Below are positions 25,795-31,729 of a stretch of 32,455 nucleotides of DNA, piece by piece; within the stretch, counting starts at the first letter, position 1; every line of letters starts with the position of its first letter. Location: the NCBI GenBank assembly GCA_013297765.1, contig JAAFID010000019.1:1-32455 (forward strand), in the 5' to 3' direction. Position numbers and translations under genes: made by a program. Source of the stretch: Cytophagales bacterium. GTDB taxonomy: Bacteria; Bacteroidota; Bacteroidia; Cytophagales; Cytophagaceae. The notes under the pieces are model-generated. The model did not search any database. It was not told the origin of the DNA and worked only from the letters and a program-made list of their open reading frames with translations.

Positions 25795-27156
25795 ATGATG
25801 ATAAAGAACTTGGTCAAAGCAAAACTTATTTCGCTTTCAACCACAATACTATTTCAATTCCATACATTTGCACAAAATAATATAGATAATTATTTATCTA
25901 TTAATCCTATACAAACCATCATTGCCAATGCAAATAATGGTGTAAAAGCACCTAGAGATATCGACTTTAATCCCCAAATTGCCAATCAAGTATGGGTGCC
26001 CAACTTTGGTACTTTAACTCAGGCAGGAAGCATGGTTATTATTTCCAATGCTGGTGCTGCCAACCAAGCTGTAGAGGTAAAAACAGATCCAGACGAATTT
26101 ATCAACCACTTTTTTAACTCTCCGTCGGCCATTTCTTTTAGCAACAATGGCAATTTTGCTACCTGTGGAGAGCTAGAAAATTCGCCAGGAGATACTAAGT
26201 ATTATATGGGCCCAGTGTTATGGCCTTCTAGCACCTTTGGCAAAGAATCGCCCAATGGCAGTAGCCATATAGATATGTTACATGAAAGTCCTTATGCAAT
26301 GGGTATAGAAGCAGAAAAAGATAATATATTTTGGCTTTTTGATGGGTTTAATGGTATGATTTGCAAATATAATTTTCACAATCCACACGCCCCAGGCGAG
26401 TTTGATCACAGCGATGGGGAACTGGTCAGATATTCAGAAATAAAAGTTCTTCGAAAAAATGGAGTACCTAGTCATTTGGTCAGGGATAAAGCCACCAATT
26501 GGCTATACATAGTAGATGGAGGCAACAAAAGAATATTGAGAATGGACATTGCCTCGGGGCAGAAAGATGCCACACTTAAATGCAACGAACCATATCAAAA
26601 TGGTTGCTATAGTATGAAAAATGTAAAGTGGGAAGTAGTAGTATCTTCAGGCTTGATAGACCCATCGGGCATAGAAGTAAAAAATAACCGTATGATGGTA
26701 AGCGATAATAGCAGTGGCGACATTATTGTTTATAATATCTCTACAGGCAAAGGGGTAGAAATGGGCAGAATAAAAACTCAATCAGGCATTATGGGAATTA
26801 AGCTATCTGGCGATAATAAGATATGGTATGTAAATAATAAGTTGAACCAAGTGGTAAGGCTAGATTATGGTGTTGTAGCAGGCAATAGCGGCTCAGAAAT
26901 ACAACAAGTTTTTTTTAATTTATTCCCCAATCCAGCGACAAATATTTGCACCATCAAATATACTGCTGCTGATGCAGCCCAAGTAAGAATAGTATTGTAC
27001 AACATCATGGGCAAAGAAATAAAAACCATGAAAGAAGGCAATTTTTCTACTATTGACGAATCTGTGGATATTGCTGATATGCCCACTGGGCTATATATTG
27101 TAGGCTTAGTGTTGAATGGTGTACCTACAACTACTAGAAAACTTGAAGTAAAATAA
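25795..27156 (+). CDS. Secreted beta-propeller-like protein with T9SS type A sorting domain
   Basis: Exported protein of about 453 residues. I choose the ATG at 25795 (or 25798), since it starts a signal peptide (KLISLSTTILFQFHTFAQ) that a TTG at 25765 would bury. The middle has NHL/SMP-30-like repeats, for example ANNGVKAPRDIDFNPQIANQ, NWLYIVDGGNKRILRMD, SGLIDPSGIEVKNNRMMVSD and GIMGIKLSGDNKIWYV, consistent with a six-bladed propeller. The C-terminal sorting domain starts FFNLFPNPATNICTIKY and ends PTTTRKLEVK, so it is secreted or surface-attached by T9SS. It lies 14 bases before the first cupredoxin gene and is probably co-transcribed. Substrate or electron-transfer role unknown. Confidence 0.8.
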   Translation: MMIKNLVKAKLISLSTTILFQFHTFAQNNIDNYLSINPIQTIIANANNGVKAPRDIDFNPQIANQVWVPNFGTLTQAGSMVIISNAGAANQAVEVKTDPDEFINHFFNSPSAISFSNNGNFATCGELENSPGDTKYYMGPVLWPSSTFGKESPNGSSHIDMLHESPYAMGIEAEKDNIFWLFDGFNGMICKYNFHNPHAPGEFDHSDGELVRYSEIKVLRKNGVPSHLVRDKATNWLYIVDGGNKRILRMDIASGQKDATLKCNEPYQNGCYSMKNVKWEVVVSSGLIDPSGIEVKNNRMMVSDNSSGDIIVYNISTGKGVEMGRIKTQSGIMGIKLSGDNKIWYVNNKLNQVVRLDYGVVAGNSGSEIQQVFFNLFPNPATNICTIKYTAADAAQVRIVLYNIMGKEIKTMKEGNFSTIDESVDIADMPTGLYIVGLVLNGVPTTTRKLEVK

Positions 27157-27170
27157 TTGAAATAGTACTC

Positions 27171-28046
27171 ATGAGAAAAATATACATTGCTTTTTGTGCA
27201 GCAGTAGTTTGCAATATATTATTTTATAATACTTTATTTGGCAATACTGTAAACAAAACTATTTATATCAACAGAGGTAAGCTGGAAACATTTCTGAAAA
27301 TTTCAATTCCTTATTTGGCCTTCAACGATAGCAAAGATTTTGTAGTAAATAGCAGTATTATAAACCTACAGCCCAGCCAAAAGTTGGTATTGAAAGTTAT
27401 AAATAATGATACAGTTGCTCACCAATTTGCCATCAAAGACATTGATGGAAAGGCAACCATCAACCCCAAGGATAGTATAATTCGTACCATCGTGTTTGGC
27501 GACGAACTGAAAAACTATATATTTTTCGACCCTTCGATGTTTCCTACCAATGTTTATATGGGTTTAGGTGGCATGATTTGTATTTCAAAATCTAAAAACA
27601 ACAAAAATTTTTTTTGGAATTTAAAAGAACATCAATTGGAGTTCAACAATGCTATCGGGAGGGGTAAAGGAGTAGATTGGACAAATTTTAATCCTGATTT
27701 GTTTACTATCAATGGTTTTACATTTCCATTTAATATTGATGATACTTCTGCCAATGTAATAGCTAATATACATGATACCATTCACATCTATATTGCAAAC
27801 ACAGGCTTGGGTATTCATGCCATACATTTTCATGGTTTTCACTGTAGGGTTATTTGGGCAAGTAATGCTCGATTGATAGATACATCCAAAGATTCATTTC
27901 CCATAAAAAGTATGGAAACGATGTTGCTAGAAATGATACCCGACAAAATAGGTGAATATACTGTTCATGATCATAATCTTATAGCCACTACTACACTGCT
28001 AAGACACCCTTCAGGAATGATGCAAATAATGAAAATACTACCATGA
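27171..28046 (+). CDS. Cupredoxin/multicopper-oxidase-like exported protein without type 1 copper Cys
   Basis: A 291-residue protein with a signal peptide (MRKIYIAFCAAVVCNILFYN) and apparently two cupredoxin domains: residues about 30-140, with no obvious copper ligands, and about 165-291. The second holds HAIHFHGFH (H216, H219, H221, H224) and TVHDHN (H266, H268), which match the HxH motifs of trinuclear copper sites. In the usual HCHxxxH the Cys is Asp267 and the third His is replaced by Ala (HDHNLIA), so a type 1 copper site is unlikely. MM at 283-284 keeps the position of the axial Met. It has no T9SS sorting domain, unlike its neighbours. The last four bases overlap the next start (ATGA). 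Confidence 0.75.
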   Translation: MRKIYIAFCAAVVCNILFYNTLFGNTVNKTIYINRGKLETFLKISIPYLAFNDSKDFVVNSSIINLQPSQKLVLKVINNDTVAHQFAIKDIDGKATINPKDSIIRTIVFGDELKNYIFFDPSMFPTNVYMGLGGMICISKSKNNKNFFWNLKEHQLEFNNAIGRGKGVDWTNFNPDLFTINGFTFPFNIDDTSANVIANIHDTIHIYIANTGLGIHAIHFHGFHCRVIWASNARLIDTSKDSFPIKSMETMLLEMIPDKIGEYTVHDHNLIATTTLLRHPSGMMQIMKILP

Positions 28047-29269
28047 AAAAATTTTATTCTTCAGTATTTATTTTATTTATTCTATATTCCTTCTCTAACA
28101 TAGAAGTTTATGGACAAAAAAAGGTAAAACAAATGGTTGTATTTCGTACTACAAACACACATACTCTATGGGATGGAGTGGCTGTACCCATCTATGCTTT
28201 TGCCTCTAGTCCATTTGTCAATTCCATACTGCCAGGTGTAACTATATATGCTACAGAGGGAGATACTGTAGAGATAAATGCCAAAAATTTATCTCAAGGT
28301 GTACCTCATACCATTCACTTGCATGGATTGGATGTAGATACCAGAAATGATGGCGACCCAATGACTTCATTTGCATTGAACCATCAAGAAGATACAACCT
28401 ATACTTTTGTAGCTGCACATGCTGGTACCTATTTATACCACTGTCATTTTATGGATGTGGTACATTTGCAAATGGGTATGTATGGTTTGGTAGTAGTGAA
28501 ACCAAAAGATGTGATGACCCCATTTAAAGGAGGTCCGGTTTTTCAAAAAGAATATTCATGGCTGATGTCGGAATTGGATAAAAATTGGCACGATTCATTG
28601 CCTAAACTTCCAGAACACACCTCGGGTATTGCACTGCCTCCATATAAACCCTCTTATTTTTTAATCAATGGCAAATCGAAGCAAATGTTGGCCGACCCAA
28701 CTATAGCAATAGCAGCAAACGTTGGCGATAAGGTGTATCTGCGTACTGCAAATATTGGTTATTATTACAACAAAATTATTTTCCCAAAAAATATCATTCC
28801 TACAGTTATAGACTCTGATGGCCGACCACTCAAAAAACCTTATACAAACGATACCATAGAAATAGTATCGGGCGAAAGATATGGAATTTTATTTTCATCT
28901 GATATGGTATTGAAAGACAATATTCTAATACAATATTATGATATGAACAATCATCAATTAAAAGGAGAGGAAAAAGTACAAGTATTGTTTGACGAGAATA
29001 CAAATAGCATAGAAGAAAAGAATGTTTATCCAATAAGAATTAGCCCAAATCCTGTGCAAAATTACTGCAACATAGAATATTCTGATCAATCGCAATGGGG
29101 TAAAATAATGGTATATAATACACAAGGGCAGTTGATAAAAATATTTAAATTGGAACAAATAGCCACACATCACCAATTAGATTTTTCTGAGTTTAGAGAT
29201 GGATTGTATTGTGTAAAATTTATTGATAATGAACATAGTACACAAGTTAATATTGTAGTAAGGCATTAG
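28043..29269 (+). CDS. Multicopper-oxidase-like protein with T9SS sorting domain
   Basis: A 408-residue exported protein (signal peptide KKFYSSVFILFILYSFSNI, cleavage near VYGQ). The first cupredoxin domain has HTIHLHGLD (H89, H92, H94) and the type 1 copper and T3 site YHCHFMDVVHLQMGMYG (H133, C134, H135, H141, M146), with the H-x4-M spacing seen in nitrite reductase and two-domain oxidases. A second cupredoxin-like domain (about 195-310) shows no copper ligands. A C-terminal T9SS sorting domain starts IRISPNPVQNYCNIEY. It overlaps the upstream gene by four bases, implying coupled expression. Oxidase, nitrite-reductase-like and metal-oxidising roles are all possible; which one is not decided here. 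Confidence 0.85.
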   Translation: MKKFYSSVFILFILYSFSNIEVYGQKKVKQMVVFRTTNTHTLWDGVAVPIYAFASSPFVNSILPGVTIYATEGDTVEINAKNLSQGVPHTIHLHGLDVDTRNDGDPMTSFALNHQEDTTYTFVAAHAGTYLYHCHFMDVVHLQMGMYGLVVVKPKDVMTPFKGGPVFQKEYSWLMSELDKNWHDSLPKLPEHTSGIALPPYKPSYFLINGKSKQMLADPTIAIAANVGDKVYLRTANIGYYYNKIIFPKNIIPTVIDSDGRPLKKPYTNDTIEIVSGERYGILFSSDMVLKDNILIQYYDMNNHQLKGEEKVQVLFDENTNSIEEKNVYPIRISPNPVQNYCNIEYSDQSQWGKIMVYNTQGQLIKIFKLEQIATHHQLDFSEFRDGLYCVKFIDNEHSTQVNIVVRH

Positions 29270-29482: not shown

Positions 29483-31729
29483 CTATTTTTTCAAAAAATG
29501 CTGAATAGCTTTTTTCTGATTTTGTTCTATTATCATCAAATAGCTGCCTTCGGAAAGACTTTCTATATTGATGGTATTGCCAGTTGCCACCAATATCGTT
29601 TTCCCTAACAGGTTTTGAATAACAACGGTAGTTGGTATATTTTCATTTAACCCATTTATAAATATTATATTTTCAGATGGATTTGGAAATATGGTAATTG
29701 AATGAAGTGTATTATTGGCATCTGCTACACTATTTGCTCCAGTAGTAGTTAAAGTAAGTGGTTCGCTGAATGCAGATTTATTTCCTGCTGCGTCTTTCGC
29801 CAATACTTTGAAATTATAGGTAGTGCCGGGTAGTAAGTTGGTAATGGTTGCACTTTCTTCATCCGCTGTAGCAATAGGCGTAGCCTCGTCATTAATATAA
29901 ATCTCATAATTTAAGACAGCTACGTTATCTGTAGATTTTTGCCAGAAAAGTCCTATTTCTGTATTTTCTATAAACAAATCTGTAAGTAAACTAGGTACTG
30001 TAGGCGAGGTTACATCTGCTAGTGTTTTTGCTACTACCACATTCGATGCTAGAGACTTATTGCCTGCTGCATCTTCAGCTACTATTTTTACATTATAGGC
30101 TGTGTTAGGTGTTAATTTTGAAATTAAAAATTCAAAATTATTGCCAATACCAATGGTTTCTCCTACTTCTACATCATTGAGAAAAACAATGTACTTGATT
30201 ACGCCAAAGTTGTCTGTGGCCTTGTCAAAAGTAATGGTTGCTGTAGTTACCGTAGTTGCTTTTACAGCTACATTGCCAACTGTGGTAGGTATGGTAGTAT
30301 CTAGCATGGTAGTTTTAGCGGTCAGTTCATTACTACTTTGCGATTTGTTTCCATCTAGGTCTATTGCTTTCACGGTTATTTTGTAATCTGTATTTGGGGC
30401 AAGTCCTGTAGCAACGTACATATTGGTAGCAGCACCCATAGTAGTACCTACAGTTTTACCATTTACCAATATTTCATATCCTTTAACAGATTTGTTGTCG
30501 GTAGATGCGTTCCAAGTTACAGCAATATAGGTACTTCCTGCACTTACAAAAGCAAGGTTGGTGGGGGAGCTAGGAGGAGTTACATCGTCTAAAATAATGG
30601 GAGCAACACAATCGGCACCTGAGTAGCTACTCAACAGATTTTTAGAAGGAATAGTGATGGTATCGCTACTGCCTGGTTTAATCCAAGTGATTTGAATAAA
30701 ATCTTCATATCTACCATCTACTTGAAGAGCTTCAAGATAGTAAACTTTTCCTGCTTGCAAGGTTACCCCAGCCGATACTTGATTGGGTGTAGCGGTAAAT
30801 AATCCTTTTTTAACACTGGTACTGCACGAAGCAATTTTTACTTTGTTTGCAGCTTTACAATCGGTACTTAGATACAATTCGCCCTGATCGTCAGAGGCAA
30901 GTGCAAATTTATATGTACCCGTAACAGGGGCTATCAAGTAGCCAAATAAGCGAGAACCATAATTATCTGACCAGTAATTACTCGTTTCAGATTGTGACAA
31001 TAATTCTATCGCATTGGGCGATGCAGGATAGTTGGCATTGGTAAGCAAGCCATCTATACTGCCGCTGGTAATACCAGTATAATACTCACGAATCATCCCA
31101 TTGTATTGACCTTCTGGTGCTATGTATATTGCTAATTTTTTGGTTTCGCTGCCATTGGCATTGGTCACTAAAATTGAGAAATTAAAATTACCAGCTTTGG
31201 TCGGCTTTCCTTTTATTTCGCCAGTATTGGCTGCAAGTGTAAGACCATCGGGCAATGCACCACTAGAAACACTATAAGTAAAGCGAGGGCCAAAAGATTT
31301 ACCATACAATGTTTTGCTGTAATTTACATTTACCTGCCCTATAGGCATTTCTTGTGTAAATAGTGTAGGTACACTTCCATAAACATAAATTAGGGAAGAA
31401 TCTTTTTTTACCAAGTTCCCTTTCTTTACGGTCAATTTTATCCAATGAACACCATTTGACAATATGTTTCCCGCAGTAAAGATTAGCTTATTGCTTAAAA
31501 ATCCATTGAGTGACGACTCCCAAGTGATTTCTGCATTTTCAATTAAAGTAGGTTCCGTTGCCGTAACTATACCCTTAAATGTGGTAATTACTTCTCTATT
31601 AACTTCGCTATTGGTCAGGGGCGTTTCTATGCCTAGAGTCACTGTTTGTGCATTCGTAGCTAAAGCAATATTTGCAAGGGCAAAAACACCACACAGCTTC
31701 ATCAAGTGGGTAAATGTTCGTTTTTTCAT
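29483..31729 (-). CDS. Large secreted PA14/FN3 surface protein with T9SS sorting domain
   Basis: Modular extracellular protein of 748 residues. A signal peptide (to NAQ, about residue 28) is followed by an Ig-like segment (30-117) and a putative-Ig (He_PIG) domain with FTYSVSSGALPDGLTLAANT and GEIKGKPTKAGNFNFSI (118-203). A PA14 domain follows (208-372; REYYTGITSG, RLFGYLIAPVTGTYKFALAS and DDQGELYLSTD). Three FN3 domains come next at about 387-474, 480-569 and 577-663, with the repeated WNASTDN / FDKATDN / WQKSTDN and LAPNTDYKITVKAID type strands. The C-terminus is a T9SS type A sorting domain (TIFPNPSENIIFINGL). PA14 domains often bind carbohydrate, so adhesion to or processing of a polysaccharide is plausible. 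No catalytic domain is seen. Confidence 0.88.
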   Translation of the reverse strand: MKKRTFTHLMKLCGVFALANIALATNAQTVTLGIETPLTNSEVNREVITTFKGIVTATEPTLIENAEITWESSLNGFLSNKLIFTAGNILSNGVHWIKLTVKKGNLVKKDSSLIYVYGSVPTLFTQEMPIGQVNVNYSKTLYGKSFGPRFTYSVSSGALPDGLTLAANTGEIKGKPTKAGNFNFSILVTNANGSETKKLAIYIAPEGQYNGMIREYYTGITSGSIDGLLTNANYPASPNAIELLSQSETSNYWSDNYGSRLFGYLIAPVTGTYKFALASDDQGELYLSTDCKAANKVKIASCSTSVKKGLFTATPNQVSAGVTLQAGKVYYLEALQVDGRYEDFIQITWIKPGSSDTITIPSKNLLSSYSGADCVAPIILDDVTPPSSPTNLAFVSAGSTYIAVTWNASTDNKSVKGYEILVNGKTVGTTMGAATNMYVATGLAPNTDYKITVKAIDLDGNKSQSSNELTAKTTMLDTTIPTTVGNVAVKATTVTTATITFDKATDNFGVIKYIVFLNDVEVGETIGIGNNFEFLISKLTPNTAYNVKIVAEDAAGNKSLASNVVVAKTLADVTSPTVPSLLTDLFIENTEIGLFWQKSTDNVAVLNYEIYINDEATPIATADEESATITNLLPGTTYNFKVLAKDAAGNKSAFSEPLTLTTTGANSVADANNTLHSITIFPNPSENIIFINGLNENIPTTVVIQNLLGKTILVATGNTINIESLSEGSYLMIIEQNQKKAIQHFLKK

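Follow-up and report, generated by a model that had tools for sequence, protein, structure and literature searches.

Overlapping Bacteroidota genes for two cupredoxin proteins that divide a predicted multicopper oxidase ligand set between them

Two-domain multicopper oxidases (2dMCOs) carry their trinuclear site between protomers; the class is described as trimeric and is divided into types A, B and C by the place of the type 1 copper, at least in the portion of the account available to us (PMC13151041). Two-domain laccases are presented as homotrimers with an active site between each two monomers in a survey of 2011, which stated, in the accessible part of its text, that Bacteroidetes seemed to be without two-domain multicopper oxidases (PMC3192119). 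Among fungal laccases, POXA3 of Pleurotus ostreatus is a heterodimer of a laccase and another small protein, as far as the available excerpt of the source tells (PMC3129051). The solved structures nearest by sequence to the two proteins studied here, and to the profile of the first, are two-domain enzymes, namely 3g5w from Nitrosomonas europaea and the metagenomic laccase 2zwn, which are both type C by alignment, with HCH in domain 1 and HDH in domain 2. In the established mechanism of multicopper oxidases, electrons pass from the type 1 copper through a His-Cys-His bridge to the trinuclear cluster, where O2 is reduced.

The window analysed here, a 32,455-nucleotide stretch of DNA from a Cytophagales bacterium, contains two genes, referred to as A and B, whose features are collected in Table 1. 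A preliminary description of this DNA had reported two overlapping reading frames, HxH motifs in both products and a complete type 1 copper site only in the second. The frames with their coordinates and lengths, the ATGA overlap, the motifs and the complete site of B are all present, and A has no type 1 Cys: an Asp occupies the place expected for it in the HDH motif. The HCH motif of B stands in the context Y-H133-C134-H135...H141....M146. The signal peptides of A and B were judged by eye.

Table 1. Features of the A-B locus in the window; all assignments to copper sites are predictions.
Feature	Positions	Strand	Remarks
Upstream gene with T9SS tail	25798..27156	+	Ends 14 bases 5' of A
Gene A	27171..28046	+	291 aa; two cupredoxin domains; only the domain-2 half of the trinuclear copper site
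A motif HAIHFHGFH (H216, H219, H221, H224)	27816..27842	+	H219 and H221, predicted type 2/type 3 copper ligands
A motif HDH (H266-D267-H268)	27966..27974	+	Predicted type 3 copper ligands
ATGA overlap, A stop / B start	28043..28046	+	
Gene B	28043..29269	+	408 aa; two cupredoxin domains; domain-1 half-site and type 1 copper site
B motif HTIHLHG	28307..28327	+	H89, predicted type 1; H92 and H94, predicted trinuclear ligands
B motif HCHxxxxxHxxxxM	28439..28480	+	H133 and H135, predicted trinuclear; C134, H141 and M146, predicted type 1
Por_Secre_tail (T9SS C-terminal sorting domain) of B	29039..29257	+	Residues 333-405, E 2.3e-11

Pfam searches placed Cu-oxidase_2 on the C-terminal half of A (E 3.4e-7) and both Cu-oxidase_3 (E 1.6e-18) and Cu-oxidase (E 6.5e-6) on B. 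Against 3g5w, the A profile was matched over positions 26-283 of 286 (E 2.7e-19) and B over residues 60-287 (E 2.8e-22). The A and B profiles were collinear across both domains in hhalign (258 columns, E 1e-27), which, together with the full-length match to 3g5w, indicates that A and B are full-length paralogues and not pieces of one cut gene. As judged from its sequence, A is a two-domain protein rather than a one-domain fragment, with a domain 1 devoid of cluster ligands, and B also possesses a second cupredoxin domain without them. The B clade was supported at 0.997 in the tree, and a single A clade was supported weakly, at 0.70 (with two outgroup rows). This genome has four B genes, three of which were listed by a PF07732 search and the fourth of which (C10) was reached via A.

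The copper ligands were compared with those of two single-chain relatives from the same phylum, L130 (G470) and L131 (G733), in which the same ligand motifs occupy both domains of one chain, so that the complete set lies on one gene without a split. In the resulting table of 112 A and 110 B rows, which still included duplicates, the domain-1 cluster ligands sit in B and the domain-2 ones in A. B retains the four cluster His of domain 1 along with the Cys, second His and Met of the type 1 site, and A mostly has other residues in these columns. For the four cluster His of domain 2 the pattern is reversed, A retaining them and B having other residues. A search for the same gene pair elsewhere, as the preliminary description had proposed, yielded 92 distinct pairs (110 minus 18 duplicates found by two routes), leaving out L070 (frameshift) and L036 and L065 (in which B runs off the contig). 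In 91 of the 92 the set is complementary and complete: each protein contributes four cluster His, and B also has the His, Cys and His of the type 1 site. This recurrence and the Pfam E-values place the features of A and B far from chance. The window pair itself meets the multicopper oxidase set, i.e., eight His in four HxH motifs plus the type 1 Cys and two His. The preliminary description had assigned the trinuclear ligands to A and the type 1 copper to B; both assignments hold and are conserved on both sides, but B provides half of the trinuclear ligands as well.

Of the four domain-1 cluster His, A keeps none in 67/92 pairs, one in 24/92 and two in 1/92; of the four domain-2 cluster His, B keeps none in 78/92 and one in 14/92. 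Domain 1 of A is incompletely stripped, as the first type 1 His column is still His in 79/92 distinct A, and one A (L097) has a Cys in the type 1 Cys column. Because the named loci were picked by patterns containing the histidines of A, the conservation of A in them is partly by construction, but that of B is not. Loci found by a profile, for which no histidine pattern was required, had complete pairs in 26/26 cases; 16 of these 26 repeat the first set, from which the profile itself was built. In mean-field coevolution analysis (DCA) on 91 pairs, A domain 2 was not enriched for couplings to B domain 1: 12 of the top 50 pairs linked them, where 12.5 would be expected. Control pairs within A appeared random as well, which leaves the test without power. 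The distance matrices of A and B correlated (r 0.85; best of 200 shuffles, 0.13), which could arise from common species history alone.

Like 3g5w and 2zwn, A and B have two cupredoxin domains each, with a type 1 copper site in domain 1 (of B) and HDH for HCH in domain 2 (of A). Unlike the 2dMCO homotrimers, which have all ligands in each chain, A and B have their ligands divided, with one domain stripped in each. When the type C criteria were applied to each protein, that of two cupredoxin domains was met by A and by B. B has the type 1 ligands in its N-terminal domain (H89, C134, H141, M146); A does not, with no more than the first His of this set left in its domain 1. The criterion of a self-sufficient chain, with both trinuclear halves, was not met, as the domain-1 set is present in 0/92 A and the domain-2 set in 0/92 B. 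The pair should work like a type C 2dMCO, but by this ligand test neither protein alone qualifies as a member. POXA3 resembles A-B in being a laccase with two different subunits, but its small partner is not described as half a copper site in the available part of the source (PMC3129051). A literature search on titles and abstracts, with most subscription journals outside its scope, found no A-B-like pair in work on heteromeric two-domain or trinuclear-site oxidases or on type C 2dMCOs, and none for multicopper oxidases with T9SS in Bacteroidetes, Crocinitomicaceae, or MbnP/MbnH. No description of a trinuclear site common to two gene products was found in the literature searched.

We consider it likely that A and B are diverged duplicates of a type C 2dMCO which have undergone complementary half-site loss and now form an obligate heteromeric, surface-anchored oxidase, with copper binding and activity being inferred. 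The copper centre appears to be divided between the two proteins, neither of which should manage the chemistry alone. With less assurance, we lean towards a class of multicopper oxidases whose trinuclear cluster came to be built from two gene products through duplication of an interface-site homotrimer and reciprocal half-site loss, with the T9SS signal on one subunit only and the tail-less subunit being exported to the Bacteroidota cell surface as a passenger of the folded complex. It is also conceivable that A and B assemble as separate homotrimers with incomplete sites, in which B would be a type 1 electron-transfer cupredoxin and A a copper-binding protein or chaperone delivering copper to B. 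The parent family forms homotrimers in the portions of the descriptions at hand (PMC3192119, PMC13151041), and there are no data on A-B binding or shared copper. However, the four ligands of A lie in the same HxH and HDH motifs as in the single-chain enzymes and are conserved jointly with those of B in all but one of the 92 pairs, the sole exception being broken in both genes, and a plain chaperone needs no exact complement of what B has lost; we regard separate homotrimers as unlikely.

The exceptional pair is L014, a paralogue on contig 64 of the same genome (G000), with A at 317-1249 and B at 1242-2450. Its A has lost H268 (HNQ replaces HDH), and its B has lost H94 (HLY replaces HLH) and the type 1 H141, with an Asn in the second type 1 His place. 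L014 is a matched pseudo-enzyme pair of the same genome, and such double-sided loss is what a shared site would predict, though this is a single case. Ligand loss in both genes of this paralogue, together with the occurrence of B-like proteins without HxH in two other genomes, one of them beside a tyrosinase gene, could also be taken as signs of a surface complex that is decaying or without catalysis, its fold preserved and its copper chemistry gone. Every ligand counted is nevertheless present in 91 distinct pairs, that of the window among them, and we find this explanation hardly credible.

A heteromeric oxidase had been said in the preliminary description to be refuted if A occurred alone in many genomes, and this did not happen. 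B lies directly 3' of A on the same strand in 80/80 named loci (the best 80 of 158 relatives), in 26/26 profile-found loci (one with a spacer of about 200 bases) and in six further pairs, namely three paralogues of this genome and those of G001, G027 and G045; no A without an adjoining B was seen among these three groups. Taking the start nearest the A stop, the spacing was -8 to +6 bases in 79/79 pairs examined, and a four-base overlap was found in 39/79. One of the 80 loci, L070 (4935-7010), reads A and B in a single frame of 692 residues and was considered as a natural A-B fusion. It was rejected because, from eight consecutive G near the end of A, the usual C-terminus of A continues in another frame, and because the B signal peptide lies inside the frame; it is treated as a probable one-base shift, either real or due to an assembly or sequencing error, and does not count as evidence here.

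Among 395 sampled genomes of the class, A (>250 bits) was detected in 16 and B (>350 bits) in the same 16, with two extra B-like matches in G445 (199 bits, no HxH) and G887 (150 bits, a fragment containing a stop). When 395 genomes were sampled across the phylum, A was found at E 1e-12 in this genome only; the remaining matches were two oxidases of the single-chain type and a B-like protein lacking HxH. Within the family of G1013, A was present in 18/35 genomes. The named carriers (from the best 80 of 158) include many Flavobacteriales and Crocinitomicaceae MAGs, unclassified Bacteroidota MAGs, one record labelled Ignavibacteriae, and the strain Lishizhenia tianjinensis CGMCC 1.7005. No A homologue was found in plasmid records or viral contigs at the limits used.

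Some loci depart from the usual layout. An A with an N-terminal extension of about 800 residues is encoded at L183:5800-9075 (G1080), and the neighbouring B is also longer, at 680 residues. L180:4591-4977 (G887) encodes a C-terminal B fragment, whose genome-wide match spans a stop, and there is no A-like open reading frame in the 10 kb fetched. At L178:2278-5169 (G445) and L179:2115-5011 (G582), a B-like protein without HxH is followed by a short beta-sandwich protein and then by another gene, which in L178, the one locus where this gene was scanned, is a tyrosinase (PF00264); no A-like open reading frame was seen in the 10 kb fetched for either.

To view the arrangement of the two proteins, an AlphaFold model was made of the pair on contig 10 of the same genome (L013) as one chain, with the A stop codon read through, based on an alignment in which seven rows spanned both halves and 65 were rows of A. 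Five models were made, with mean pLDDT of 83.3-90.1; the best reached 90.1, with a pTM of 0.90. The first 25 Foldseek ranks went to chains of factor V/VIII, ceruloplasmin and Mnx, whose TM by query length was 0.57-0.67 (ceruloplasmin 4ejx, 0.66; Mnx 9bxa, 0.67); the 612-residue factor VIII chain 4bdv_A gave 0.60 by query and by target, and a single 3g5w subunit only 0.39. The match to the ring proteins is coarse, given an rmsd of 7 to 12 Å over 700-830 columns. The factor VIII heavy chain is made of two consecutive two-domain units, so that A and then B are placed roughly like ring neighbours, the two chains together occupying four of the six positions in the known ring. In ceruloplasmin, an interface of this kind holds the cluster. 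According to the model, A domain 2 would face B domain 1, at what is the cluster-bearing interface in the superfamily. Ceruloplasmin, factors V/VIII and MnxG, whose consecutive two-domain units the model coarsely resembles, are long single chains, cleaved later in the case of factors V and VIII, whereas the four domains of the pair are divided between two genes. Because the chains were tethered and only seven rows spanned them, the predicted packing may have been helped by the tether and by the predictor's familiarity with multicopper oxidase rings. It agrees with the heteromeric proposal in overall arrangement only, no His-His distances were obtained from it, and the stoichiometry of the complex remains an inference.

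A second structural search, VIA-align 2, returned 50 rows that mostly matched one model half at a time. Two-domain chains aligned to the B half came first (3g5w, Z 28.4), and the 50 rows shown contained none of the six-domain ring proteins heading the Foldseek ranking. The A half aligned to NirK chains with Z of about 25, and B scores 61.4 bits on the NCBIfam CuNIR model TIGR02376. Both matches would suit a different use of the shared histidines, i.e., other copper chemistry such as CuNIR-like nitrite reduction at a type 2 site in place of O2 reduction. However, the score of B is far under the cut-off of that model (296.3), A is unmatched by it, and the pair keeps eight cluster His, while a CuNIR needs three His per type 2 copper. 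Such chemistry seems to us very unlikely.

For a heteromeric oxidase of A and B, we propose that substrate electrons would enter at the cell surface at the type 1 copper of B, held by H89, C134, H141 and M146. From there they would pass via the H133-C134-H135 bridge to the trinuclear cluster, to which B domain 1 would supply H92, H94, H133 and H135 and which A domain 2 would complete with H219, H221, H266 and H268. O2 would be reduced to water at this cluster shared by A and B, and the remaining domain of each partner would be structural. B had been suggested in the preliminary description as the surface anchor, which fits the distribution of the T9SS sorting tail, found in 78/81 B homologues and 0/83 A. 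The T9SS cargo criterion PF18962/TIGR04183 was met by the window B and not by A. With the tail in B and none in A, an enzyme that acts outside the cell requires export of A, either together with B or by a separate route. The tail of B may thus bring the complex to the cell surface, and A, with its signal peptide and no sorting tail, would need either to accompany B or to be retained by it; co-export of this kind is inferred.

If the heteromeric proposal is true, a Bacteroidota lineage appears to have made an obligate heteromer from a homotrimer by opposite half-site loss in gene copies. The pair would make this textbook route to obligate complexes testable, with copper that can be counted and single-chain relatives that still exist. 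It also offers a testable case of a type IX passenger, in which a tail-less subunit completes the active site of a tailed one.

The neighbouring genes were also surveyed. MbnP-type and MbnH-like genes were both present in 18/80 named loci (the best 80 of 158), each family being named from one representative: that of MbnP has PF20243 above the cut-off, and that of MbnH is a CCP_MauG di-haem protein below the NCBIfam MbnH cut-off. The MbnP gene stands right behind B on the same strand in 10/79 loci (L028, L031, L043, L053, L058, L059, L060, L061, L076 and L082). In these ten, it starts at most 15 bases from the B end or overlaps it, and an MbnH-like di-haem gene occurs in each. These neighbours in some genomes point to copper handling, and the substrate is unknown.

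Directly upstream of A, a small beta-sandwich gene with a T9SS tail is found in 55/79 loci (e.g., L024:4295-4978), and W69, C74 and C79 of its product are invariant in 24 aligned members. None of the members scanned has a Pfam domain above the cut-off except the tail. This protein was considered as the missing ring domain and rejected, as its model, outside the sorting tail, best matches the PorA N-terminal domain (Z 10.0), with no cupredoxin among the structural-match rows shown.

The upstream gene of Table 1 takes the place of the beta-sandwich gene in the window. Its product has relatives in the sequence fetched around four other A-B loci, in two cases on the opposite strand (L027:1356-3341, L051:1482-3518, L076:2918-4285 and L078:7063-8172). 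A stretch SHxDMxHxxP recurs, by eye, in those relatives whose inspected sequence extends that far, and the relative in L076 has a sub-threshold NHL repeat match. This gene is possibly an operon partner of A-B, with an unknown role. On the other side, facing the pair from the minus strand, 29483-31729 encodes a 748-residue protein in which repeated fibronectin-like segments and a C-terminus resembling a T9SS tail were recognised by eye.
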